Shown: positions 421-57,682 of the stretch, in pieces
How the letters are laid out: each line of letters starts with the position of its first letter
How positions within the stretch are numbered: position 1 is the first letter of the stretch
Assembly (NCBI GenBank): GCA_028278405.1
Contig: JANQEK010000041.1
Location: 1 to 64,000, forward strand
Direction: 5' to 3'
Length of the DNA: 64,000 bases
Source of the DNA: Nitrospinaceae bacterium
GTDB taxonomy: Bacteria; Nitrospinota; Nitrospinia; Nitrospinales; Nitrospinaceae
Position numbers and translations under genes: made by a program
The notes under the pieces: model-generated
Seen by the model: only the letters and a program-made list of their open reading frames with translations
Told to the model about the DNA's origin: nothing
Database searches by the model: none

Positions 421-1371
421 ATGTACAAAAATAAATCGGTTGCCGTCGTGGTAACTGCGCATAACGAAGAAAAGCTGGTCGTCAAGGTCCTTGAGACTTT
501 ACCGCATTGGGTCGACAAAGTGTTTGTTGTCGACGATTGCAGTGACGACAAAACTGTTGAAGTTGTTGAGAAGTATATGAAGGTGGATGTTCGGGTGGAA
601 TTAATTCGCCATGCGGAGAACCGAGGTGTGGGTGGGGCCATTCAATCAGGGTACCGGGCATGCCTGGAAAACAATATGGATGTCACCGTGGTGATGAACG
701 GTGACGCTCAGATGCATCCTGACGATCTGCCACACATTGTTGATCCCGTCGCCACAGACATCGCCGATTACTCGAAGGGCAATCGCCTGTTTCACGGCGA
801 AGCATGGGAATTGATTCCGCGGTATCGGTATATCGGCAATGCCATTCTTTCGCTCATGACAAAAATTGCCGGCGGGTATTGGCATGTGGCCGATTCCCAA
901 TGCGGCTTCACCGCAATTTCCCTGAAGGCATTAAAATGTATCAATATAGATAAAATTTTCCAGCGATACGGAGTACCCAACGATATTCTTTTAAAACTCA
1001 ATATCGAGAATATGCGGGTGGTGGACGTGCCGATTCGCCCGGTTTACGGAGTGGGAGAGCAATCCGGAATACGCTTGTATAAAGTGATTCCGGATATTTC
1101 ATTTCTGCTCTTTAAAGGATTTTTCAGCAGGATGTTTGGGAAGTATGTCATCCGGGATTTTCATCCCCTGGTATTTTTTTACATTATGGGGTTCATCGCT
1201 TTTCCTTTGGGCTCCGGTATGGGGCTGTACTATTTCTTTTACCGGATTTTTGTCGGACCCGTGACTCCCATAACGGCGTTGTTCGCCGCTTTCCTTACCC
1301 TGATGGGTTTGTTGTTTCTATTGTTCGCCATGTTGTTTGATATGGAATACAACCGTAATCTCAAAGAATAA
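421..1371 (+). CDS. GT2 polyprenyl-phosphate glycosyltransferase (DPM1/CsbB-like)
   Basis: The 316-residue protein starts with a GT-A fold: VVVTAHNEEKLV at about 8-20, VDDCSDDKT (nucleotide-sugar binding) at about 38-46, and MNGDAQMHPDD (DxD-like metal site) near 92-102. The tail carries two predicted membrane helices (about 243-267 and 275-305). This matches polyprenyl-phosphate mannose/GlcNAc synthases such as DPM1, GtrB and CsbB, which load a sugar onto undecaprenyl phosphate on the cytoplasmic face. It sits inside the YfhO array. In Bacillus, CsbB works with YfhO, so the two probably form a donor-maker and transferase pair here; the sugar cannot be read from the sequence. Confidence 0.85.
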   Translation: MYKNKSVAVVVTAHNEEKLVVKVLETLPHWVDKVFVVDDCSDDKTVEVVEKYMKVDVRVELIRHAENRGVGGAIQSGYRACLENNMDVTVVMNGDAQMHPDDLPHIVDPVATDIADYSKGNRLFHGEAWELIPRYRYIGNAILSLMTKIAGGYWHVADSQCGFTAISLKALKCINIDKIFQRYGVPNDILLKLNIENMRVVDVPIRPVYGVGEQSGIRLYKVIPDISFLLFKGFFSRMFGKYVIRDFHPLVFFYIMGFIAFPLGSGMGLYYFFYRIFVGPVTPITALFAAFLTLMGLLFLLFAMLFDMEYNRNLKE

Positions 1372-1434
1372 TTTTTAATGGTTTCCAGGTGTAGCTCGGC
1401 TGTGGTCCGATGAGGATAAACAAACTGACTACCA

Positions 1435-3849
1435 ATGAATTGGCACCTCCGAAATTTATACAATATGCAGACCACAGATGGTTCCGTTATCAATGATCGT
1501 TCAAGATCGAAAATAAACCTTCTGGGTATCGGTATATTGCTATTGATAACGGCGGCGTTTTTCTACCCGATGTTGTTCGACGGTAAAGTGATTTTTTACC
1601 GCGACTACAACCTGATCACTTACCCTATCCGCTATTTCCTCGGTCAATCATTCAATCAATGGGCCATTCCCTTTTGGGTGCCGTATGCCAATGGAGGGAT
1701 GCCGTTCATGGCCACCTTTCATCCCGGCGTATTTTATCCTCCCAGCCTTTTGTTCCTTCTGGATGACACTACCTATGCCCTGAATTTGTTTTATGTTCTG
1801 CATTTTGTGATTCTCGGAGTTTTTACGTTCCTCCTCGCGCGCAGCTGGAAAATTTCTTTTGTCGCCGCCTTGTGTTCCGCCGTAACGGCCATGTTGAGTG
1901 GTTATATCGTGGCCTCTACCCTGATCAGCAATTATTTTATTTCTGCAGTCTGGTTGCCCCTGGTGTTCTGGATGTTCCACCGGTTCTGGACGCGAAAGCA
2001 TGTCGGTTACTTTATTGGATTGGTGCTGGCCATTGCTACGCAAACATTGGCGGCTTGTCCGGAAATCAATGTTATGACCATGTGCCTGCTGTATGCACAT
2101 TCGCTTTATTTTTTGCCCAGGGCACCGGGATTCCCCGGGATTGCACGCATGACGGCTGCCCTGGCGTTGGCGGTGGCTCTGGCTTTGGGTTTGTCGGCAT
2201 TGCAATTGGTTCCCACAGCCAAGCTCCTCAAGCATTCTTTCAGAGATGGCGGATTAAGCTATGAAGACCACACTCGATGGTCTATGGATCAGAAGGAATT
2301 GCTTTCTCTGGTGATATCCCCCGATTATGAGGGTTATTTTGACAGGCCACTGCGCCACCCTCCTGCAGCAGAAACGAAGGATAAAGTTTTGTCCGGATTG
2401 GAAACCGGTTCTGAAGCTTCTTCAAACTCAACTCTCCAAACGGCGCCTCCTCAAACTTCCAGGTTACTGTACACAATGTATTTGGGTTTGATTGCCCTGG
2501 TTTTTGTCTTTTTTGGTTTTCTGGTTCGACGGGAAAAAGTAATGGGTTTTTGGCTGGTGGTGTTTCTCTTCGGCCTCTTCTTTGCGTTTGGAAAGTACAA
2601 CCCTGTTTACAAAGTGTTTTATTTTTTGATTCCTATCTTAAATCTGTTTCGTTATCCGGAAAAGTATACTTATTTGTCTGCTTTTGCCGCCGTATTCATG
2701 ACCGGCTACGGTTTGGATAGTTTAATTCGCTACACCCGGGAACGTCGAATCAAGATTTATCCTGTGCTGACTATAGTGATCATTTTGTTCGGCGTGATCG
2801 GGCTGGGAACGTTGGACAAATCCCATTTCAATCCTGTTTTTTCCATGGGTTTACTGGCAGTGTTCGGCTTTGTTTATATCCTGTACTATTTTGGAAAAAT
2901 GAAAGAAGGCGTATTTGCGGTTATGGTTCTGGCGGTGATTCTCCTGGACTTGTCGGTCAAAGGGATCAAACTCTTGCCATTGATCGATCGCAAGTATTAT
3001 GAGGAAAAACCGGTCCTTCTGGAACAGCTGGATGAAGCATACGGAAAATACCGGATCTATTCCGGAAACCTCAACAAGCAACCTCAACCCTTAAGTTATC
3101 CTCTGGGTCCGACCCGATTGTCACAGATTCTCGCCAGTAAGCAGCATTTGATACCGTATGCAGGGATGGTGTACCAATTGGAGCATGTCAACGGAATTAC
3201 CGGCTTAGCTCTTACCCTGAAAAATAACATCATGTGGGGGCAAATATTTACCAAGAGCCCGGCAGAAAGAAGAAGACGCATCCTGGCACGGAGCAACACG
3301 CGGTATTGGATTGACGGTGAAACGTTGACACACTATCTGGAAGACTATCCCGTCATTCTGCCGAACCGGCTCAAAGTGCTGGATGGCACTCTACCCAGAG
3401 CTTATCTCGTTCCCAGAATGAAAGTGCCGACTGAAGACGGACATTTGCTCAACACCTACTACAAAGAGTCATTCGATCCACTCAAGGAAGTCCTGTTTTA
3501 CGAGGCAGTTGATTTCGAGGAATCGCCTCACTTTAAAGGAACTGTGGAGAACGTGGAGTATCGACCCAATCATGCGACGGTCAAAACCTTTCAGGAAGGA
3601 AACGGATTTCTGGTTTTAATGGATTCGTATTTTCCAGGCTGGACGGTCAAGGTCGATGGTGAAAAACAACCTGTTTTGCAAGCCAATCATTTTTACCGTG
3701 CCGTTCAACTGGGGCCGGGACGGCATACCCTGGAATTTGATTATGTGCCGGAGGGCTTCAGGGTGGGACTGACCATCAGCGGCGTTTGTGTATTTCTTAT
3801 AATTCTCATGGGTTTGTTTTCTGGAAAATATGTAAGAAAGATCGTTTGA
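1435..3849 (+). CDS. YfhO-family membrane glycosyltransferase-like protein (copy 2)
   Basis: An 804-residue polytopic protein with about 12 hydrophobic segments, a first periplasmic loop with the family signature (VIFYRDYNLITYPIR, GGMPFMATFHPGVFYPPS) and a soluble C-terminal domain (PGWTVKVDG, LEFDYVPEGF) before a last helix. The acidic/aromatic first loop is typical of GT-C enzymes that use polyprenyl-linked sugars. It differs from the other copies by an extra Ser/Thr/Pro-rich loop of about 40 residues (codons about 302-343). The ATG at 1435 gives the longest frame; ATG 1465 is an alternative and neither has a strong ribosome site. Acceptor unknown. Confidence 0.82.
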   Translation: MNWHLRNLYNMQTTDGSVINDRSRSKINLLGIGILLLITAAFFYPMLFDGKVIFYRDYNLITYPIRYFLGQSFNQWAIPFWVPYANGGMPFMATFHPGVFYPPSLLFLLDDTTYALNLFYVLHFVILGVFTFLLARSWKISFVAALCSAVTAMLSGYIVASTLISNYFISAVWLPLVFWMFHRFWTRKHVGYFIGLVLAIATQTLAACPEINVMTMCLLYAHSLYFLPRAPGFPGIARMTAALALAVALALGLSALQLVPTAKLLKHSFRDGGLSYEDHTRWSMDQKELLSLVISPDYEGYFDRPLRHPPAAETKDKVLSGLETGSEASSNSTLQTAPPQTSRLLYTMYLGLIALVFVFFGFLVRREKVMGFWLVVFLFGLFFAFGKYNPVYKVFYFLIPILNLFRYPEKYTYLSAFAAVFMTGYGLDSLIRYTRERRIKIYPVLTIVIILFGVIGLGTLDKSHFNPVFSMGLLAVFGFVYILYYFGKMKEGVFAVMVLAVILLDLSVKGIKLLPLIDRKYYEEKPVLLEQLDEAYGKYRIYSGNLNKQPQPLSYPLGPTRLSQILASKQHLIPYAGMVYQLEHVNGITGLALTLKNNIMWGQIFTKSPAERRRRILARSNTRYWIDGETLTHYLEDYPVILPNRLKVLDGTLPRAYLVPRMKVPTEDGHLLNTYYKESFDPLKEVLFYEAVDFEESPHFKGTVENVEYRPNHATVKTFQEGNGFLVLMDSYFPGWTVKVDGEKQPVLQANHFYRAVQLGPGRHTLEFDYVPEGFRVGLTISGVCVFLIILMGLFSGKYVRKIV

Positions 3850-6246: not shown

Positions 6247-8601
6247 ATGTCGGCCCGTAAAAGTTCACTTCAAAATTTAAAATTCAATGCCGGGTTTTTG
6301 CAAGAGCTATCCGGAGTGGCATTGTTGTTCCTGGCGGCTCTCAATATTTTTTCCCCGGCGCTCTTTATGGATAAAGCAATTTTCCATAGGGATTTCCATT
6401 TCATTACCTATCCTTTCAGGTATTTGCTGGGCCAGGCCTATCAGCAGGGGGTTATTCCATACTGGTCTCCTCACGTCTACGGTGGTATGCCGTTCATGTC
6501 CCTGTTTCATCCGGGTGTGTTTTACCCGCCCAGTCTCCTTTTCTTATTGCAGGATACGGTTTTAGCGATCAACCTTTTCTACTTTTTACATTTTCTGGTA
6601 TTGGGAATTTCTTTGTTCCTACTGGGAAAGCTCTGGAAATTTTCTTTTGCAGCGCGATTGTGTTCCAGTGTGACCGGGATGTTGAGTGGATTTATAGTTG
6701 GATCAGTACTACTCAGCAATTATTTTATGGCTGCCGTGTGGCTTCCCGTAATTTTTTGGTTGTATCTGAAATATCGGCAAGAAAAGCGTATCAGTTATTT
6801 TGTCGGAACCGTGTTGGCTATTGCCGCTCAAACGCTGGCGGCTTGTCCTGAAATCAGTATTATGACCGTGGGACTTCTATTTCTTCATGAGCTCTGGTTC
6901 ATCCCTAAAGGGCAGGGGTTTGCGTCTTACCTTCGATTGACCGTTTCGCTGGGATTGGCAGTGGTACTGGCTTTGGGTCTCTCGGCACTCCAGCTATGGC
7001 CTGCCGCCGAGCTTCTTCCTCATTCACCCCGAGAGGCGGGGATGAGTCTTGATGCTCATACTGTGTGGTCCCTGGAATTTTCAAAGCTCGCCACCTTGGT
7101 GTTGTCTCCTTTTTATATAGGAAATTCAGGTTCGGGTGATTTTTTTACTGGTTTTCTGCACACCCTTTATATGGGACTTGTAAGCCTGGCGTTCATCTTT
7201 ATAGCCTTCTTTTTAAAAAAGGAGAAACCCGTCGCTTTCTGGCTGGTGATCTTTGTGCTTGGAATATTTTTTGCTCTCGGTCGGTACAACCCACTCTACA
7301 AGTATTTCTATCATGTAGTGCCTTTAACACACCTATTCCGGTTTCCGTCCAAATATTATTTTGTATCCTCGTTTGCCGCCGTTTTCCTCACCGGATACGT
7401 TCTGGATTATATTTTGAAGCATACGGAAAGCCGGTATTTCAAAATTGTTCCGGTTTTGTCTGTATGCATTTTTCTTTTTGGAATTGTGTGCGGGGTTGGT
7501 TTGTGGCAACCGGCACTGGATATGGAAAATGCACTGGTCATCCTGTTCGTTTTTGGACTCGCTTACATTTTGTTTTATTTCAGAAAGATCAGGAAGCCCG
7601 TATTTGCAGTTGTTGTTTTTCTTTTGATTTTTATCGATTTGAGTTTGAAAGACTTCAAGCTGCTCCCTCTTATCGATAGAAAGTTTTATGATGAATCGCC
7701 TGTATTTATGAAGTATCTGAAAGACTCTCCCGGAGAGTACCGCGTTTACACGGGACGGATACAACGGGAGCCCGGAGCCATGGATGCTCTCGAAGCCCCG
7801 TCCGCCCTGCATCGCCTCAAGATGCTGAAGCAATATTTAACCCCCTATACCGGGATGGTTTACGGGATTGAACACGCGGCGGGAAAACCCGGCCTGGGGT
7901 TGGGATTAAAATATCAATTGATCTGGATGTCGGTATTGAGACAATCCGATCCTGAAACAAGATTGCGTATCTTGAATCGCAGCAACGTCGGATACTGGAT
8001 TAATCTGGATCAAGAGACCCGTTTCGACTCGAAGGGGGAACCGGAGATTCTCCCCGGTCGTATCTATGCCTTGGAAGATGCTTTGCCCCGAGCTTACTTT
8101 GCTCCCAAAATGAGGGTTCTGAAAGAAAAAGCCGTTCTCCAAACCTATTACGCCGCATCTTTCGATCCACTCCAGGAAGTGCTGCTGACCGAGCCGGTGG
8201 AATTCCAGCCTTCCGAGTCCTTTCAAGGACAGGTCGAACAGGTGAATTATCGGCCCAATCACGTGACCCTCAAGACCCGCCAGGACGGAAACGGATTCCT
8301 GGTACTGAATGACACCCACTTCCCCGGCTGGACCGTGACGGTGGATGGCAAAGAGGGGAAAATCTTGAAGGCCAATCACTTCTACAGGGCGGTGCAATTG
8401 GGATCCGGGGAGCATATTGTGGAATTCGATTACTTCCCGCAAGGTCTCAAGGAGGGGCTGATCGTCAGCTCGATTTCCCTGCTTATTTTGATCGCCCTGC
8501 CGCTCATCAGGCCTGCAAAAAGACTCCAGATTGAGTCTGCCATTCCCTCTTCTTCAGCCCCTAAAAAGCCGTCTGAGGAGGACACAACGTCTTATAAATA
8601 A
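6247..8601 (+). CDS. YfhO-family membrane glycosyltransferase-like protein (copy 4)
   Basis: This is the last member of the tandem array (784 residues from ATG 6247; a TTG at 6184 would add 21 residues of poor quality). It shows the same signatures (AIFHRDFHFITYPFR, GGMPFMSLFHPGVFYPPS, QTLAACPEISIMTV) and C-terminal domain (FPGWTVTVDG, VEFDYFPQGLK). The tail after the last helix is Ser/Pro/Lys-rich. There are about 90 bases between copy 3 and this start, less tight than the copy 2-3 junction. Function is inferred as for the other copies. Confidence 0.82.
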   Translation: MSARKSSLQNLKFNAGFLQELSGVALLFLAALNIFSPALFMDKAIFHRDFHFITYPFRYLLGQAYQQGVIPYWSPHVYGGMPFMSLFHPGVFYPPSLLFLLQDTVLAINLFYFLHFLVLGISLFLLGKLWKFSFAARLCSSVTGMLSGFIVGSVLLSNYFMAAVWLPVIFWLYLKYRQEKRISYFVGTVLAIAAQTLAACPEISIMTVGLLFLHELWFIPKGQGFASYLRLTVSLGLAVVLALGLSALQLWPAAELLPHSPREAGMSLDAHTVWSLEFSKLATLVLSPFYIGNSGSGDFFTGFLHTLYMGLVSLAFIFIAFFLKKEKPVAFWLVIFVLGIFFALGRYNPLYKYFYHVVPLTHLFRFPSKYYFVSSFAAVFLTGYVLDYILKHTESRYFKIVPVLSVCIFLFGIVCGVGLWQPALDMENALVILFVFGLAYILFYFRKIRKPVFAVVVFLLIFIDLSLKDFKLLPLIDRKFYDESPVFMKYLKDSPGEYRVYTGRIQREPGAMDALEAPSALHRLKMLKQYLTPYTGMVYGIEHAAGKPGLGLGLKYQLIWMSVLRQSDPETRLRILNRSNVGYWINLDQETRFDSKGEPEILPGRIYALEDALPRAYFAPKMRVLKEKAVLQTYYAASFDPLQEVLLTEPVEFQPSESFQGQVEQVNYRPNHVTLKTRQDGNGFLVLNDTHFPGWTVTVDGKEGKILKANHFYRAVQLGSGEHIVEFDYFPQGLKEGLIVSSISLLILIALPLIRPAKRLQIESAIPSSSAPKKPSEEDTTSYK

Positions 8602-49699: not shown

Positions 49700-51067
49700 T
49701 TACTTCAAAATCGCTACGATATATTTGGCGATCTCGAGAGCGGAGCCTCTTTTGCTTTGCACGTAAGCGGCGGCTTTTTTGTGGAGTTGGGGAAGTTCTT
49801 CGGCTTGCATCAGCAATTTTCTCACCACGGCAAACAAATTCTGATCGTCGGATACGGGAAACGCCAGCCCCTGGGTCTTCAGTTCGCCGGCGGTTTTCTG
49901 GTTATTTTCAATATAAGGTCCGTGTAGAACCGGTTTGCCCTGAGCGACCGGTTCCAGAAGGTTATGGCCTCCGCCGGGAGGGAACAGGCTTCTACCGACG
50001 AATGCTATATCGGCGATGGAATATACTTTGGCCAGTTCCCCGTGTGTGTCGAGCAATACGATGTTGGTTGAAAGTTTGGCACGCGGATCAATTTTTGACC
50101 GCAAAACGAATTTAATATTTTCCTTTTCAAGGTATTTAGCGATTTCCCCAACACGTTCCAGCCTTCGTGGAGCGATCACCATGGAGAGCTTGGGGAATTT
50201 CCGGCACAGCTTCAAGTAAGCGTTGACGCAAACCTTTTCCTCTCCTTCATGGGTGCTCCCTGCGACCCACACCTGTCCGTCACGCGGGAATCGGAATCGT
50301 TCGAGGATGCGGATCCGTTCTGCCTGCTGAACGATTTGCAAGGCGTCGAACTTGGTGTCTCCGACGATACGTACACGTTGTGGCGGCGCTCCCAGGTTCT
50401 GAATCGTGGTGCGTCCGCGTTCACTTTGCATACAAATGACTGCAAACGATTGCAACAGGGGTTTGACCATGGTGGCAATCTGTTTGTAACGGGCCTGGGA
50501 TTTTTCCGAAATTCTTCCGTTGAACACCATGGGGGGGATACGCCGTTCTTTCAAGCTCATGAGCATACTGGGCCAGAACCCGGTATCGGTGAGAACGTAT
50601 AAATCCGGCTTGATTCGATCCAGTGCCCGGTTGATGAACGGCCAGGAGTCCAGGGGATGAAAAAAGATGTGGTCTACAAATGGCAGCATCCGTTGGGCGG
50701 CGTCATAGCCGGCATCGGTGGTGACCGAAACCGCAAGAGCGATGCTGGGACGTTTCTCGTGGATGATTTTGAGGACCGGCGCAGCGCCGTTGACTTCTCC
50801 CAGAGACAGGGCATGCAGCCAGACCAGTTTCTGTCCGGGTTTTTTTTCTACCTTGGGTACCCAGCCGAAATGATGTTTAAGACCTCGCCGTTTTTTCCCG
50901 GTGACCAGGGAATACACCGTGAAAGCAGGCATCAAGACAAAAGAAGCGATTCTGGAGACAAATTTAAGAACCCTGATTTTTTTGCCTGCCTTGGCGCTCT
51001 TGTTTCTTTTTTGAGTTCCGGTTCCCCTGTTGTTTGCCGGTTGCTTGGATGGGGCTTTCATGTTCAA
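49700..51067 (-). CDS. WaaA-like Kdo transferase paralog, altered active-site region
   Basis: A 455-residue member of the WaaA/KdtA GT30 family with a basic N-terminal extension (about 40 residues) and a membrane helix. HALSLGEVNG keeps the catalytic Glu (E91), and GGHNLLEPVAQGKPVLHGP is intact. The normally invariant METELWPN motif is LTDTGFWPS (D161, G163), so both Glu are changed. It overlaps the end of the intact paralog upstream (ATGA). It may act on another sugar or be a non-canonical Kdo transferase. Confidence 0.8.
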   Translation of the reverse strand: MNMKAPSKQPANNRGTGTQKRNKSAKAGKKIRVLKFVSRIASFVLMPAFTVYSLVTGKKRRGLKHHFGWVPKVEKKPGQKLVWLHALSLGEVNGAAPVLKIIHEKRPSIALAVSVTTDAGYDAAQRMLPFVDHIFFHPLDSWPFINRALDRIKPDLYVLTDTGFWPSMLMSLKERRIPPMVFNGRISEKSQARYKQIATMVKPLLQSFAVICMQSERGRTTIQNLGAPPQRVRIVGDTKFDALQIVQQAERIRILERFRFPRDGQVWVAGSTHEGEEKVCVNAYLKLCRKFPKLSMVIAPRRLERVGEIAKYLEKENIKFVLRSKIDPRAKLSTNIVLLDTHGELAKVYSIADIAFVGRSLFPPGGGHNLLEPVAQGKPVLHGPYIENNQKTAGELKTQGLAFPVSDDQNLFAVVRKLLMQAEELPQLHKKAAAYVQSKRGSALEIAKYIVAILK

Positions 51068-52332
51068 GTTGGATTTCCTTTTTCTACGAGCGATTCGATC
51101 AGATCCAGGTTGCGGTTAACTGCTCCCTTTTGCCGCCGGACCGCTTCCGCAGCGAGAGCGCCGCGCTTTAAGATTTCTTTCGGGTCGCTCAGCAATGTTT
51201 CCAATACAGACGTCAAATCCTCCGGCCGGTCGATTTGAATACCGCCTCCGGATTCGGTCAGTAATCGGGCTTCCTCTTCGAAGTTGCCCATGTGCCGACC
51301 GTAAATTACCGGCAATCCTAAAATTGCAGGTTCGAGGATATTGTGCCCACCATGATTGGGATCGAATCCTCCGCCCACAAAGGCGACCTGCCCCTGACGG
51401 TAGTAATCGTTCAACACGCCCAAAGCATCCACCAGCAGGACGGGCGATGTCCAATCGTCCGCGAAATCCTTCCGCTCTGAATGGAGCATGACCGACAATC
51501 CCGCGTTTTTCAAAATGTTTGCCACTTCAGGGCACCGCTGCACATGCCGGGGTGCGACTATGAACTTATAGTCTAAAGGGTTTTGGCTCAATTGAGAAAT
51601 GGCTTTTGCCACGGCGGCTTCCTCACCCGGCCGGGTGGAACCAAAAATAACAGTGATTTCATTAAGTTGCGTTGGTCTGGGAGCACGATCCTCATCGGCG
51701 ACAAGCCCGTCGAATTTAACATTACCGGTTACCTGGATTCGGGCCGGATCGATGCCCAATTGCTGAAGGCGGTTCGCTTCCGCCTGGGCACGCATGGAAA
51801 ACAGGGAGATCGGTTTGGTGATCCAAATAAACCAGGGCTTCAGTTTCCGGTAGCGGGTAAAGGATTTGGCCGACAGACGTCCGTTGGTCAGGAGTACGGG
51901 AATTCTTTTCTGCGAGCAGGCGTGGAGCAGGTTGGGCCAGTATTCCGCTTCGATCAGAATCAGGATTGCCGGGTCCAGCCGTTTCAGCAGGGGAAGGATA
52001 AGAAAGGACAAATCCAGCGGTAGCCGGAACACGGGGCACTCCAGTATTTTTTTTGCCAGCTCAAATCCCGTTGCTGTGAAGGTGGACAAAACAACCGGAC
52101 GGTTCGGCAGACGTTGTTGCAAAGCCCGAACCAGCAGTTCCGCCGCCCGCACCTCGCCTACGGAAGACGCATGAACCCAGAGACATCCCGTTTGCTGGGG
52201 GATGGATTTCCATTGACGCGTTCTTTGAATGATCTCGGAACGGAACGACGAGTCCAGCCCCATGCGGATGATCCAGTAGGGAGAAGTCAGTAGAAGGGCG
52301 GTGGCTATGATAATATTGTATGCGAACTTCAT
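51064..52332 (-). CDS. waaA: 3-deoxy-D-manno-octulosonic acid transferase
   Basis: The 422-residue protein adds Kdo from CMP-Kdo to lipid IVA at the inner membrane. An N-terminal helix, HASSVGEVRAAE (catalytic E60), IEAEYWPNLL (E128/E130) and GGHNILEPAILGLPVIYG are all present. It is the first gene of a two-gene unit with the altered paralog, whose start overlaps its stop by four bases. lpxK starts divergently about 65 bases away. Confidence 0.9.
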   Translation of the reverse strand: MKFAYNIIIATALLLTSPYWIIRMGLDSSFRSEIIQRTRQWKSIPQQTGCLWVHASSVGEVRAAELLVRALQQRLPNRPVVLSTFTATGFELAKKILECPVFRLPLDLSFLILPLLKRLDPAILILIEAEYWPNLLHACSQKRIPVLLTNGRLSAKSFTRYRKLKPWFIWITKPISLFSMRAQAEANRLQQLGIDPARIQVTGNVKFDGLVADEDRAPRPTQLNEITVIFGSTRPGEEAAVAKAISQLSQNPLDYKFIVAPRHVQRCPEVANILKNAGLSVMLHSERKDFADDWTSPVLLVDALGVLNDYYRQGQVAFVGGGFDPNHGGHNILEPAILGLPVIYGRHMGNFEEEARLLTESGGGIQIDRPEDLTSVLETLLSDPKEILKRGALAAEAVRRQKGAVNRNLDLIESLVEKGNPT

Positions 52333-52396: not shown

Positions 52397-53494
52397 ATGA
52401 GCCTCGAATCCTTTTTCCATGAGGTCATTTCTCCCAAGCGCGCTCTTCATCTGATGCCTGTTTACGGAGTGTTGCGTCTGGTTTCGATATTTTACGCATT
52501 GGGTCAGCGGATGCGCGCGCGGTTGTACAGCCGGAAAATTTTCCGTTCCCGCCGACTGAATTGCCGGGTGATCAGTATCGGCAACTTGACGCTTGGTGGA
52601 ACGGGGAAAACGCCAACGGTGATCATGGTGGCGGAAACCCTGCGTCGCAAAGGTTTCAAGCCGGCTGTTCTGAGTCGCGGCTACGGGGGTCGATCCCCGG
52701 AATCCGTCAACGTGGTGAATGACGGTCGGCAAACCCTTCTTTCTCCCGAGGCGGCTGGGGATGAGCCGGTGATGATGGCCCGGCGGCTCAAGGATGTTCC
52801 GGTGCTGACCGGCCGCAACCGATATGAAACGGGAAAGTATGCCATCAAGCATTTTGGAGTCGACGTACTGATTCTGGACGACGGGTATCAACATTTGGCT
52901 CTCCATAGGGATTTGAATATTCTTTTGTGTGACGCTTCCTATCCATTCGGGAATGGAGTTGTGTTTCCGGCGGGTGAATTAAGAGAACCGTTGACGGCAA
53001 TGAGCCGGGCGGATGCGATCTGTCTGACCCGCTGGCACAAAAACAATACCCAAGACGGAATCGACGGAGTGAACTGCAAACGGGTGCCGGTGATTAAAAC
53101 CGGAATGCGGGTGCAGTCGGTGATTGAATTGGATTCGGGAAAAGAAACGGGGATCGAGATTCTCCAAAACATACCGGTTGCAGCGTTTTGTGGCATCGCC
53201 CGTCCACTCGATTTTTTTGAGACATTGAAACAGACATCGGTGCAAATTGTGAATCAAAACTCTTTTCCAGATCATCACCCCTATTCCCCCGCTGAATTAA
53301 AAGCCATCGAGGATCAAGGGAAACAGGTGGGAGCGAAAGCGATCGTTACGACGGAAAAGGATGCGGTCAAGTTGAAGGACCGTGCGTTCGGTTTGCCGGT
53401 GTACGCGGTGCGGGTTGATCAGGAAATTCTAGAGGGTCAGGAAGAGTGGGACCGGCTCCTGCAATTGCTCCTGCCTGCAGGGGGAACCGGATGA
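52397..53494 (+). CDS. lpxK: Tetraacyldisaccharide 4'-kinase
   Basis: A 365-residue kinase that phosphorylates the 4' position of the lipid A disaccharide. N-terminal helix, P-loop NLTLGGTGKTPTV, VLSRGYGG, LDDGYQHLALHRD, DHHPYSPAEL and TTEKDAVKL are present. ATG 52397 is chosen (AAAGGAG upstream); a longer frame from 52301 runs into the waaA promoter region. The stop overlaps the next ATG (ATGA). With the divergent waaA gene this forms a lipid A/Kdo cluster. Confidence 0.93.
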   Translation: MSLESFFHEVISPKRALHLMPVYGVLRLVSIFYALGQRMRARLYSRKIFRSRRLNCRVISIGNLTLGGTGKTPTVIMVAETLRRKGFKPAVLSRGYGGRSPESVNVVNDGRQTLLSPEAAGDEPVMMARRLKDVPVLTGRNRYETGKYAIKHFGVDVLILDDGYQHLALHRDLNILLCDASYPFGNGVVFPAGELREPLTAMSRADAICLTRWHKNNTQDGIDGVNCKRVPVIKTGMRVQSVIELDSGKETGIEILQNIPVAAFCGIARPLDFFETLKQTSVQIVNQNSFPDHHPYSPAELKAIEDQGKQVGAKAIVTTEKDAVKLKDRAFGLPVYAVRVDQEILEGQEEWDRLLQLLLPAGGTG

Positions 53495-53969: not shown

Positions 53970-56411
53970 ATGCAATCCAATCTGTTTGAAATACTGTTCC
54001 GGGCGGGATGGGGTTTTGTTTTCCTGGCAATCTTCTTTGGAACTTCTCTTTCTCACGCCGAGCCGGAGGATGCTTCTCTGTATTGGAAACCGCCGGCACA
54101 GGAATTAAGTGAAGAAAACATTTCAGGCCCGGCTCTATTGCAACGATTGTTCGCCATGCCACCGGACGTCATGGAGGAAGTAGAAATCCCGGTTCGACCT
54201 CCGCGGACCCCAAGAGCCTGGCTGGGAATCACCATGCAGGAAGGTCCGCCACTATTCCTGAAAGATGCCGAGGATTTTTCTCCCACCCTTCAGATACGTG
54301 ACGTCTTTCCCCATTCCTCCGCTCATCGTGCCGGGTTGCAGCCCGGCGATACGATTCTGGCGACCGACGGCCAGGAACTGTCCCTCGGAAAAGAAAATTC
54401 GCTGATGATGAATTTTCGTCGAAGGGTGCAGGATGCCGGTGTCGGTAATATCTTTCAATTAAAAATTAAACGCGCATCTCAGGAAATGGAATTGCCAGTA
54501 GAGCTTTCTCCCAAGCCCATCGTACCGGAGCCTTTGGAATCTCCTACACCCGTGCAAATGACTGCATTGCCGTCGGAGGATTCTCTTTTTCATCGCATTC
54601 TGCTTCGTCACCAGAGGTTGGAGGATTACTCTGTCGTCGTTGAAGAAATCCGCGAGCGTACCCGGCAGGCAGTGACCACAGCGGTTAAAGGAAACACCTA
54701 TAGTCCATTTCGCATGCAGGGAATGAACTCCATTCTCAGGCAACCTCTGGATTTGCCGCTCGCCTCTCAGGAACTGACGGCTGCACTGCGCCGGAATTTT
54801 ATCGGAGCCCGGTTGAATACGGGGGGCATCATCCGTTCCGCCATGCAGGCGCTGGAATTTGAAGCGGACAAGTCATCTCCGGAACAAAAATCCACCGAAT
54901 TGACCGTTCTACTGGATCGAATCCTGGAAGCTCTGGCGAACGCGGGTGCCGCCAGCGATACCGCCCTGCAGGCCCTCACTTTAGAAGAAAGAAGTTTGCT
55001 GGTTCAAGGGATCCATCATTTGATGGTAGGAAGCTTGAAGTCTCGCGATTCGATTGCGGACAAAACCAATAACACTCAACCTTCTGTAACGGAGTTTCTC
55101 AACACCGCTTTGAAATTGGATACGCGTCTTTTACTCACGGCAGGTTTAAAAGTGGCACAGGAGATCAACCTGGAAACTCTTGTGGAGTGGGCTCAGAACC
55201 TGGATCAGTTTTCTCTATCCCATGAAGGTTGGGTAACCGAAAACGTGGGCGATGTCACCTATGTGTACACCCGGCATGGGTTGATGATTGTGGGCGGGAC
55301 TGGAGACAACGACTACGATCAGGAGGCCTTGTTGATTGTTGACTTGGGCGGCAATGACCGCTATCGCAATGGTGCTGGGGCCAGCCGGGAAGGACATCCC
55401 TTCAGCATGGTGATCGATTTTTCCGGTAACGATGTCTACCGCACCGGTGAAGACTATGCGCAAGGCGCCGGAATTCTGGGCGGAGGATTTTTAGTCGACC
55501 TGGGAGGAAACGACCAATACCTTTCGCAAAGTTTCGGACAGGGCGCCGGAGTGATGGGTGTGGGAATGCTGATTGACATCGGAGGGGATGATCTTTATCA
55601 GTGCCACTCTTTTTGCCAGGGAGCGGGATTTTTTGGTATCGGTTTGATTGCGGAGTCGGGTGGCAACGATCAGTACTCTGCGGCCATCTATTCCCAGGGG
55701 TTCGGATTCATCCGCGGCTTGGGTATGATTCTCGAAGGCGAAGGCAATGACCGGTTTTTTGCGGGCGGTGTGTACCAGGATTACCGCGAACCCGGTAAGG
55801 CGTACCTCTCTATGTCACAGGGATTCGGGTTTGGCCTTCGCCCCTGGGGAACCCTCGCCGGAGCTTCCGGCGGGATCGGGATACTGGATGATTTCCAGGG
55901 GAACGACCATTACCTCAGCGATTATTTTTCCCAGGGGGCAGGCTATTGGTACAGCCTGGGTATTTTAAATGACACGGACGGACATGATTTCTATGCGGCC
56001 GGACGCTATTCGCAGGGTGCGGGTATTCATCTTGCGGCCGGGATGTTGCACGACAATGCAGGAGACGATCATTACATCGCCCGCTACGGAGTGTCACAAG
56101 GGTGCGGGCATGATCTCGCAATCGGTTTTCTTTTGGACAACAACGGCAATGATCGATATGTTGGAGGCACCTTGTCCCAGGGAGCAGGCAATGCTAATGG
56201 TTTCGGTGTGCTCAACGACAATGGCGGCAGCGACGAATATTATCTGCATGACGAGGGACAAGGCCACGGCAACACCGAAGTCTTTCGACAACTCGACAGC
56301 TTCGGTATTTTGTTCGACACCGGCGGCAGCGAAGACCACTATTCCTTGGGAGGTCTGAACAACCAAGTCAACCTCCACACTCAATGGGGCATTCAGGCTG
56401 ACCTGCCTTAA
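53970..56411 (+). CDS. Exported PDZ protein with SQGAG...GND repeats
   Basis: The 813-residue protein has a signal peptide (about 1-30), a PDZ domain (about 78-185; LGITMQEGPPLFL, AGLQPGDTILATDGQ), a helical middle (about 205-420) and, from about 440, eleven or so degenerate units of 25-35 residues: D-x-x-G-N-D-x-Y, a variable turn, S-Q-G-A-G, then a hydrophobic G-x-L-x-D segment. The repeats look like a solenoid or calcium-binding roll. It is the last gene of the lpxK unit, so it likely works in the periplasm or outer membrane. No family was recognised. Confidence 0.75.
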   Translation: MQSNLFEILFRAGWGFVFLAIFFGTSLSHAEPEDASLYWKPPAQELSEENISGPALLQRLFAMPPDVMEEVEIPVRPPRTPRAWLGITMQEGPPLFLKDAEDFSPTLQIRDVFPHSSAHRAGLQPGDTILATDGQELSLGKENSLMMNFRRRVQDAGVGNIFQLKIKRASQEMELPVELSPKPIVPEPLESPTPVQMTALPSEDSLFHRILLRHQRLEDYSVVVEEIRERTRQAVTTAVKGNTYSPFRMQGMNSILRQPLDLPLASQELTAALRRNFIGARLNTGGIIRSAMQALEFEADKSSPEQKSTELTVLLDRILEALANAGAASDTALQALTLEERSLLVQGIHHLMVGSLKSRDSIADKTNNTQPSVTEFLNTALKLDTRLLLTAGLKVAQEINLETLVEWAQNLDQFSLSHEGWVTENVGDVTYVYTRHGLMIVGGTGDNDYDQEALLIVDLGGNDRYRNGAGASREGHPFSMVIDFSGNDVYRTGEDYAQGAGILGGGFLVDLGGNDQYLSQSFGQGAGVMGVGMLIDIGGDDLYQCHSFCQGAGFFGIGLIAESGGNDQYSAAIYSQGFGFIRGLGMILEGEGNDRFFAGGVYQDYREPGKAYLSMSQGFGFGLRPWGTLAGASGGIGILDDFQGNDHYLSDYFSQGAGYWYSLGILNDTDGHDFYAAGRYSQGAGIHLAAGMLHDNAGDDHYIARYGVSQGCGHDLAIGFLLDNNGNDRYVGGTLSQGAGNANGFGVLNDNGGSDEYYLHDEGQGHGNTEVFRQLDSFGILFDTGGSEDHYSLGGLNNQVNLHTQWGIQADLP

Positions 56412-56431: not shown

Positions 56432-57682
56432 ATGTCCGACACATTGACCCGAATTTTGTTTCATAAACTCGTGACCCTGAGCGGTGAGGATTATGAAAGG
56501 GGTGAACTGATCATCAATCAGGGTCGTATTGTGGATGTGCGTTCGGGAGCCAATAAATCGTTCGAGGGGACCACGCACGACTGGTCGGACTGCCTGATTC
56601 TTCCCGGATTTGTCAACGCCCATTGCCATCTGTCTCTGTCCGGATTGCAGGGGAAAGTTACTCGACACCCGAGGTTTGTCGATTGGATCGAATCGGTGGT
56701 GACGGAGAATGCGGCTCTCCCCTGGCGTGACCGGGTGGATGCGATGCACCGGGAAGCTCAGGTGCTGATAAGATCTGGAGTGACAGCCCTGGGGGATTAC
56801 TTTTCTCATCCGGAGCTTCTGGTGGAATACCAGGCTCTGCCGTTTAGACAGTTATTGTTTCTGGAAACGCTCGGCTTTCAGTCTACCCTGGCGGGCGAAA
56901 AAGTCCGCTCGGTTGAAAAGCTTTTACAGGAGCATCTGTCGGGAGCCGGTTCCTCCACCCGGCTCGCGGTGGCACCCCATGCCCCGTATTCTGTTTCTCC
57001 AGCTCTATTTAAAGCATTGAAACAACTGGCGGACAAGCTGGACTGCGGCTACTCATGCCATGTTGCAGAAGTCGAGGAAGAAACCCGGTTTTTAGGCCAG
57101 GGAGACGGCGATTTTCTTGAGCTTCTCAAAAAACGGGAGGTTTTCGATACCTCCTGGAAACTTCCCGGCGTGAGTCCCGTCCAGTACCTGGGGCAATTGG
57201 GTGTGCTGCAGAATATGATGGCTATCCATTTGAATTGTTTGGAGGAAATGGATATCGAGCGATTGGCGGAAAGCAATGCCAGTGCTGTGTTTTGTCCCGG
57301 CAGTACCCGCTGGTTTGGACGAAACACCTGGATGCCGGTGAGGGATTTGCTGGATCGGGGAATTCCCGTGGGACTCGGCACCGACTCGTTGGCCAGCAAC
57401 GATTCACTGGATTTCCTCCATGAAATCAGAAATTCGGATGAAATGTTGCCCGAATTGCATCGTTCCGAGATCCTCTGGCTCGCGACGATAGGGGGGAGTC
57501 AGGCCTTAAATATTGAAAAACTTGGGCTTGAGCCCGGTCAACCGGCAGACCTGATTGCTTTCCGGTTTCGCAATGCAGAGGACGACTGGTGGGATCTTCC
57601 GTTTGACCCGGAGTGCCACCAAGTCGATTTTTCGATGGTCTCCGGAGAGGTTATTTTTCAGAATTCCGATAAAACGGCGTAA
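56432..57682 (+). CDS. Amidohydrolase, adenosine/aminofutalosine deaminase-like
   Basis: A 416-residue metal-dependent deaminase: GFVNAHCHLSLSG (HxH), APHAPYSVSP, SCHVAEVEEE (His), MAIHLNCLE and GLGTDSLASND (Asp). This order matches the MTA/SAH and 6-aminodeoxyfutalosine deaminase branch. Given the NAHCHLSLS start, aminofutalosine (menaquinone) or MTA are both possible; the MTAP-like gene at 19785 would fit MTA. It stands 20 bases after the PDZ protein gene. Confidence 0.82.
   Translation: MSDTLTRILFHKLVTLSGEDYERGELIINQGRIVDVRSGANKSFEGTTHDWSDCLILPGFVNAHCHLSLSGLQGKVTRHPRFVDWIESVVTENAALPWRDRVDAMHREAQVLIRSGVTALGDYFSHPELLVEYQALPFRQLLFLETLGFQSTLAGEKVRSVEKLLQEHLSGAGSSTRLAVAPHAPYSVSPALFKALKQLADKLDCGYSCHVAEVEEETRFLGQGDGDFLELLKKREVFDTSWKLPGVSPVQYLGQLGVLQNMMAIHLNCLEEMDIERLAESNASAVFCPGSTRWFGRNTWMPVRDLLDRGIPVGLGTDSLASNDSLDFLHEIRNSDEMLPELHRSEILWLATIGGSQALNIEKLGLEPGQPADLIAFRFRNAEDDWWDLPFDPECHQVDFSMVSGEVIFQNSDKTA

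Follow-up and report, generated by a model that had tools for sequence, protein, structure and literature searches.

A predicted beta-solenoid domain of fixed length with four invariant residues, present in a putatively exported PDZ protein of Nitrospinaceae and in many other phyla

The window, a stretch of 64,000 nucleotides from a Nitrospinaceae bacterium, contains a gene for a putatively exported PDZ protein, in which the repeats of the C-terminal region are well supported by structure prediction as a single beta-solenoid of about 13 rungs and of fixed length. Four residues of this domain, an arginine, a tyrosine, a histidine and an aspartate, are invariant among its relatives. The domain is not specific to Nitrospinota; going beyond the initial annotation of this gene, it defines a family of constant length that occurs in many phyla, mostly located away from lpxK and ICMT-like genes and often lacking the PDZ domain. 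We lean towards a reading in which the protein is a calcium-stapled solenoid of the cell envelope, which has one site for binding or catalysis and is recruited to its partners by PDZ, HEAT or TPR modules.

Layout of the protein and its repeat region

The coding sequence and its parts are located at the following positions of the window:

53970..56411, plus strand: coding sequence of the 813-aa putatively exported PDZ-helical-solenoid protein (P0001); open frame from ATG to stop, orthologues across Nitrospinota
53970..54059, plus strand: putative signal peptide, residues about 1-30, ending at SHA before EPE; recognized by eye from its hydrophobic core and AxA-like end
54204..54515, plus strand: PDZ domain, residues 79-182, HtrA/DegP-like; PF00595 (2e-5), TIGR02037 over 61-187, Foldseek matches to the PDZ regions of DegS, DegP and HhoA
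54567..55265, plus strand: helical domain, residues 200-432, with conserved PFRL (247-249) and P259; AlphaFold2 helices, region HMM and alignment conservation
55278..56402, plus strand: predicted beta-solenoid domain, residues 437-811, rungs of 25-28 aa; motif counts, AlphaFold2 and family alignment
55341..55364, plus strand: first Ca-type turn, DxxGNDxY, residues 458-465; column statistics, 88 proteins x 11 rungs
55758..55913, plus strand: double-length rung of 52 residues (597-648), which carries R624; alignment of the main family

The N-terminal part agrees with the initial annotation, which had described an exported PDZ protein. The PF00595 profile matched with 25.3 bits against a cut-off of 23.2, and the signal-peptide-like N-terminus suggests export. 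The PDZ domain is HtrA-like in its sequence and in its predicted structure, but in contrast to HtrA, DegP and DegS the protein has no trypsin-like protease domain; TIGR02037 matched the PDZ part alone, with 39 of the 416 bits needed, and the assignment as an HtrA protease was rejected. The helical domain had no Pfam match of its own. An HMM of this region showed that it accompanies the solenoid in 83 of 86 proteins, while PDZ is present in 47 of 86 and absent from roughly half of the family, which is another difference from the HtrA-type proteins. The helical domain and the solenoid form the core unit. In other copies there are HEAT repeats at the C-terminus (Eisenbacteria, Ignavibacteria and Planctomycetota), HEAT together with TPR, or N-terminal HEAT, and one divergent planctomycete copy (L137) has a C-terminal stretch that looks TPR-like by eye. 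No catalytic Pfam domain fused to the solenoid was found. Because PDZ, HEAT and TPR are all protein-binding, the common reading of these architectures would be that the solenoid is recruited to partners. PDZ here, and HEAT or TPR elsewhere, could then be exchangeable modules, and the PDZ domain may bind the C-termini of partners or substrates, either presenting them or anchoring the protein near them.

The repeat region spans 375 residues and contains 12 turns of the D/E-x-x-G-(N/D)-D-x-Y type, placed on the family alignment, and 10 QGxG turns; the protein is rich in glycine and aspartate. In residues 437-813 there are 10 QGxG motifs, compared with a mean of 0.9 and a maximum of 5 in 5000 shuffles of the region, and 11 G[NDHS][DE]x[YF] motifs, compared with a mean of 0.26 and a maximum of 3 (5000 shuffles). 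The earlier estimate of about eleven repeats was therefore a fair count (11 GND-type motifs by pattern, 12 turns on the alignment), and the proposed extent, codons about 440-800, was right within about 10 residues. The DxxGNDxY-type turn recurs to residue 757, and a looser last copy ends at Y791. The spacing between the tyrosines of successive rungs is 25-28 residues, apart from the single double-length rung, whose pattern, AGG.Y.D.R.P..Y.S.SQGFG.G.RP...SGGIG, is kept throughout the main family. Over the alignment columns of 11 rungs from 88 proteins, turn position 1 is D in 93% and E in 6%, position 4 is G in 100%, position 5 is N or D in 83%, position 6 is D in 99%, and position 8 is Y in 99%, while position 3 is occupied by G, S, E or A.

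AlphaFold2 gave a confident beta-solenoid, both for the full-length protein with a 49-sequence alignment (pLDDT 88.7, pTM 0.90, and most of the repeat region above 90) and for the solenoid domain alone (pLDDT 92.8, pTM 0.92), and the two runs agree. A rung is predicted to consist of two to three short strands. With perfect repeats, AlphaFold2 has a documented tendency to predict beta-solenoids too readily (PMC11795689); here, in contrast, the repeats are imperfect, with a mean identity of 38%, and sequences from many phyla make up a diverse alignment. The comparison of the model with PDB structures using Foldseek returned as the top match 3p4g (prob 0.80, E 0.49, TM 0.42/0.52), which is weak, with no match at E < 0.001; three more chains of 3p4g were also among the matches. 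The search of BFVD for similar folds gave nothing significant.

The length of the solenoid domain is 355-387 residues, with a median of 378, in 88 proteins, and among the copies found by HMM 40 of 42 are 352-393 residues long, the other two being 320 (possibly cut) and 400. The mean identity of equivalent rungs between twelve distant representatives is 55%, versus 38% between different rungs within one protein. Together, the fixed length and the rung-by-rung likeness argue for one defined domain and rule out a variable, expandable repeat tract. The greater likeness of equivalent rungs suggests that the repeats were fixed before the phyla acquired the gene, and that each rung has constraints of its own.

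The initial annotation had named a known family model covering the repeats, for example RTX or a beta-helix, as the result that would speak against a new solenoid. In searches of the whole protein against Pfam (2025), NCBIfam (2026) and PHROG no model covered the repeats, and PDZ was the sole domain found. Searches of 46 solenoid domains from many phyla against Pfam gave no consistent match, only eleven scattered and mostly single-member ones. When all chain sequences of the PDB were searched with profiles of the domain and of a single rung, nothing was found; a 13-residue match to importin (E 1) in the PDB sequence search was dismissed. No description of SQGAG or GND repeats, or of a planctomycete PDZ/HEAT solenoid, was found in the literature. 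Hence, together with the AlphaFold2 model, these data support the suggestion of a new solenoid, and for its location in the envelope it is the putative export signal that argues.

Invariant residues on rungs 7 to 10

The positions that stand out in the family alignment are encoded as follows:

55839..55841, plus strand: Arg624, invariant
55944..55949, plus strand: Tyr659, invariant, and Trp660, always W, Y or F
56028..56030, plus strand: His687, invariant
56109..56114, plus strand: His714, which is H, W or Y in paralogues, and Asp715, invariant

When glycines and turn positions are excluded, only seven residues are conserved in at least 98% of 129 proteins. Three of them, Q576, Q617 and Q655, belong to the repeat consensus, while the other four are R624, Y659, H687 and D715, each present in 129 of 129. 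These four are located one per rung on the consecutive rungs 7, 8, 9 and 10, and Y659, H687 and D715 sit 4 or 5 residues past the repeat glutamine. A domain of 355-400 aa with R, Y, H and D on rungs 7-10 describes the family, and the present protein conforms to it. Two search patterns of the relatives scan contain H714 and none of the four residues, and 42 of the 129 proteins were found by HMM and not by pattern, although some species may occur in both sets; therefore, the conservation of the four residues is not an artefact of the search.

Judging from the rung register, R624, Y659, H687 and D715 would share one space. Single-copy R, Y, H and D residues on neighbouring rungs are what is expected of a binding or catalytic site, and the conserved patch looks like one such site. 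Each of the rungs 7-10 would contribute one invariant residue, located within or directly after the QGxG turn, and the four, together with the aromatic residue 660 and usually H714, could form one site for binding or chemistry; a glycan or a peptide may be the ligand that it binds or acts on. In right-handed parallel beta-helix enzymes, such as pectate lyases and C5-epimerases, residues of successive rungs can form one active site; the likeness is one of idea only, and no sequence match or significant fold match of the solenoid to these enzymes was found. A bolder form of this reading is a new enzyme family, in which a calcium-stapled, RTX-style beta-solenoid would carry a catalytic Arg-Tyr-His-Asp group on four consecutive rungs, act on an envelope or exported substrate, be recruited by PDZ, HEAT or TPR, and be widespread in Planctomycetota and other Gram-negative phyla; this proposal is tentative, and we regard it as possible rather than probable.

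The same residues bear on the view that the domain is purely structural, a rigid periplasmic spacer or display platform, in which R, Y, H and D would be contacts that maintain the fold, for example near the double-length rung. This would fit with the solenoid being joined to protein-binding modules and never to a known catalytic domain, as well as with the nearest solved folds being scaffolds or binders. However, structural needs recur on every rung, yet each of the four residues occurs once, on rungs 7-10, throughout the family, and a histidine and an aspartate beside an arginine and a tyrosine are unusual for mere packing, which makes a plain scaffold rather unlikely.

Gene neighbourhood and distribution

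The solenoid gene belongs to a same-strand cluster, of which the other members are:

52397..53494, plus strand: lpxK, first gene of the cluster; TIGR00682 (1.6e-70), PF02606
53491..53964, plus strand: ICMT/PEMT-like methyltransferase; PF04191/PF04140, NF040696 below cut-off
56432..57682, plus strand: amidohydrolase, aminofutalosine-deaminase-like; PF01979, best NCBIfam model NF006269 below cut-off

The profile matches of the two upstream genes corroborate the earlier statement that the solenoid gene follows lpxK and an ICMT-like gene. The ATG of the ICMT/PEMT-like gene overlaps the stop of lpxK, its own stop is 5 nt upstream of the solenoid gene, and the amidohydrolase starts 20 nt downstream of it. 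Upstream of the cluster, on the minus strand (49700-52332), there are two tandem, overlapping Kdo-transferase-like (waaA/kdtA) genes, which matched the same NCBIfam models with scores below cut-off. The source genome contains no second copy of the repeats, and its other matches are to PDZ only.

The order lpxK-ICMT-solenoid is kept within Nitrospinota, which could speak for a protein linked to lipid A or LPS. On the other hand, outside Nitrospinota there is no common lpxK neighbour cluster and the neighbours differ by lineage, with pilin and YprB-like genes beside the solenoid genes of Zixibacteria and radical SAM genes in Brocadiales, and in one Nitrospinota family (f2) the solenoid gene is lost while lpxK stays, so that a link to LPS is improbable. 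In this family the solenoid gene has decayed, and lpxK-ICMT is followed only by broken remnants. In one of them (L017, about 1168-2364, minus strand) residues 15-272 and 751-812 remain, with a stop, and in another (L022, 1495-1779, minus strand) just the last 60 residues are left. The presence of these remnants after the ICMT gene indicates that the solenoid gene is dispensable in that lineage. A radical SAM gene lies 3′ of the solenoid gene in 18 loci (L050, at 7074-8051, and 17 others of Planctomycetota), mostly from Brocadiales, and this neighbour is lineage-specific.

Orthologues are present in other members of the genus, the family and the order, with repeats that can be aligned rung by rung. 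When one genome of each species was scanned with patterns, 361 relatives were obtained, and the 80 best of them came from Nitrospinota, Planctomycetota (Brocadiales and others), Zixibacteria, Eisenbacteria, Bacteroidota, Ignavibacteria and Calditrichota, as well as from Myxococcota-type Deltaproteobacteria, Nitrosomonadales, TA06, WOR-3 and one archaeal bin. This bin (G087), labelled as a Thermococci archaeon (1.3 Mb), has two solenoid copies (L105 and L139), which could reflect either archaeal presence or misbinning. Pattern-free surveys with an HMM detected the solenoid in 16 of 77 genomes of Nitrospinota, in 63 of 149 sampled genomes (42%) of Planctomycetota, where a single genome has up to seven copies, and in 13 of 148 genomes of Bacteroidota. 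On the Planctomycetota side, four genomes (G120, G201, G148 and G149) have 5-7 matches to the solenoid model each, some of them maybe pieces of one gene, and the fused modules vary among HEAT, TPR and PDZ. No solenoid relative was found among viral contigs and plasmids, and an origin from a phage or mobile element was rejected on this ground. The tree of 88 solenoid domains groups them mostly by phylum, with the copies of Nitrosomonadales nested among Nitrospinota; those of Gallionella/Nitrosomonadales (L041, L044, L048 and L068) group with one Nitrospinota groundwater copy (SH-aLRT 100). This nesting suggests a transfer, and for the Gallionella/Nitrosomonadales copies horizontal transfer is probable, or else a binning error in L044.

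Relation to RTX and antifreeze solenoids

The initial annotation had noted that the repeats do not match the nine-residue RTX form, and indeed GGxGxD is absent from the protein. PF00353 had no match at E<=1 for any of the 46 solenoid domains, nor at E<=10 anywhere in the genome, and membership in the RTX/HemolysinCabind family was rejected. Still, turn positions 4, 6 and 8 (G, D and a large hydrophobic residue) of the RTX form GGxGxDxUx are 99-100% kept in every rung. In RTX rolls, adjacent turns hold the ions between them by their aspartate side chains and their backbone carbonyl groups (PMC2174480). With the RTX-like positions 4, 6 and 8, a row of Ca2+ along the turns is a natural inference from this, and we consider it likely by analogy. 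The protein would be exported by the general pathway to the cell envelope, where Ca2+ ions would most likely be lined up between acidic side chains of adjacent turns, as they are in the antifreeze solenoid of Marinomonas; uptake of Ca2+ there would mean that the solenoid folds or rigidifies only outside the cytoplasm, as a rigid rod of about 13 rungs.

A surface-layer protein or adhesin of the RTX type, with repeats that can be extended, would share with the present protein an RTX-style turn per rung, the putative export and the richness in glycine and aspartate. In contrast to RTX proteins, however, there is one turn per 25-28 residues and not one per 9, position 1 is acidic, position 2 is free, and no PF00353 match was found. 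Moreover, the number of repeats is nearly constant across phyla and the rungs are individually conserved, and the protein has a putative N-terminal signal peptide, with no C-terminal type I secretion signal or pattern and no long adhesin architecture, all of which leaves such an adhesin quite improbable.

The structure 3p4g is region IV of the Marinomonas primoryensis antifreeze protein (MpAFP RIV), a Ca2+-bound beta-solenoid of thirteen 19-21-residue RTX-like repeats, with the 19-residue repeat xGTGNDxuxuGGxuxGxux (PMC3492233). The present domain is like it in being a beta-solenoid, here a predicted one, with one GND turn per rung, thirteen rungs and a probable extracytoplasmic location. It differs in its rungs of 25-28 residues, in the Asp/Glu at turn position 1 and in the strict, fixed R-Y-H-D residues, and it has no Thr-Asx ice face, no sequence match and no significant fold match. 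An ice-binding or otherwise water-organising protein, for which the top fold match and the shared GND could speak, is very hard to credit when the threonine at turn position 3, which makes the ice face of MpAFP, is replaced by G, S, E or A, and when the family, judged from record titles, occurs in groundwater, anammox and many other non-polar settings.

Pfam 2025, NCBIfam 2026 and the PDB have no entry for this solenoid domain, which occurs in 42% of the Planctomycetota genomes sampled, as well as in anammox bacteria and numerous uncultured phyla. The domain would link the calcium-turn type of RTX and antifreeze proteins to a non-repetitive domain of fixed size with an apparent functional site, and the four named residues make its function directly testable.
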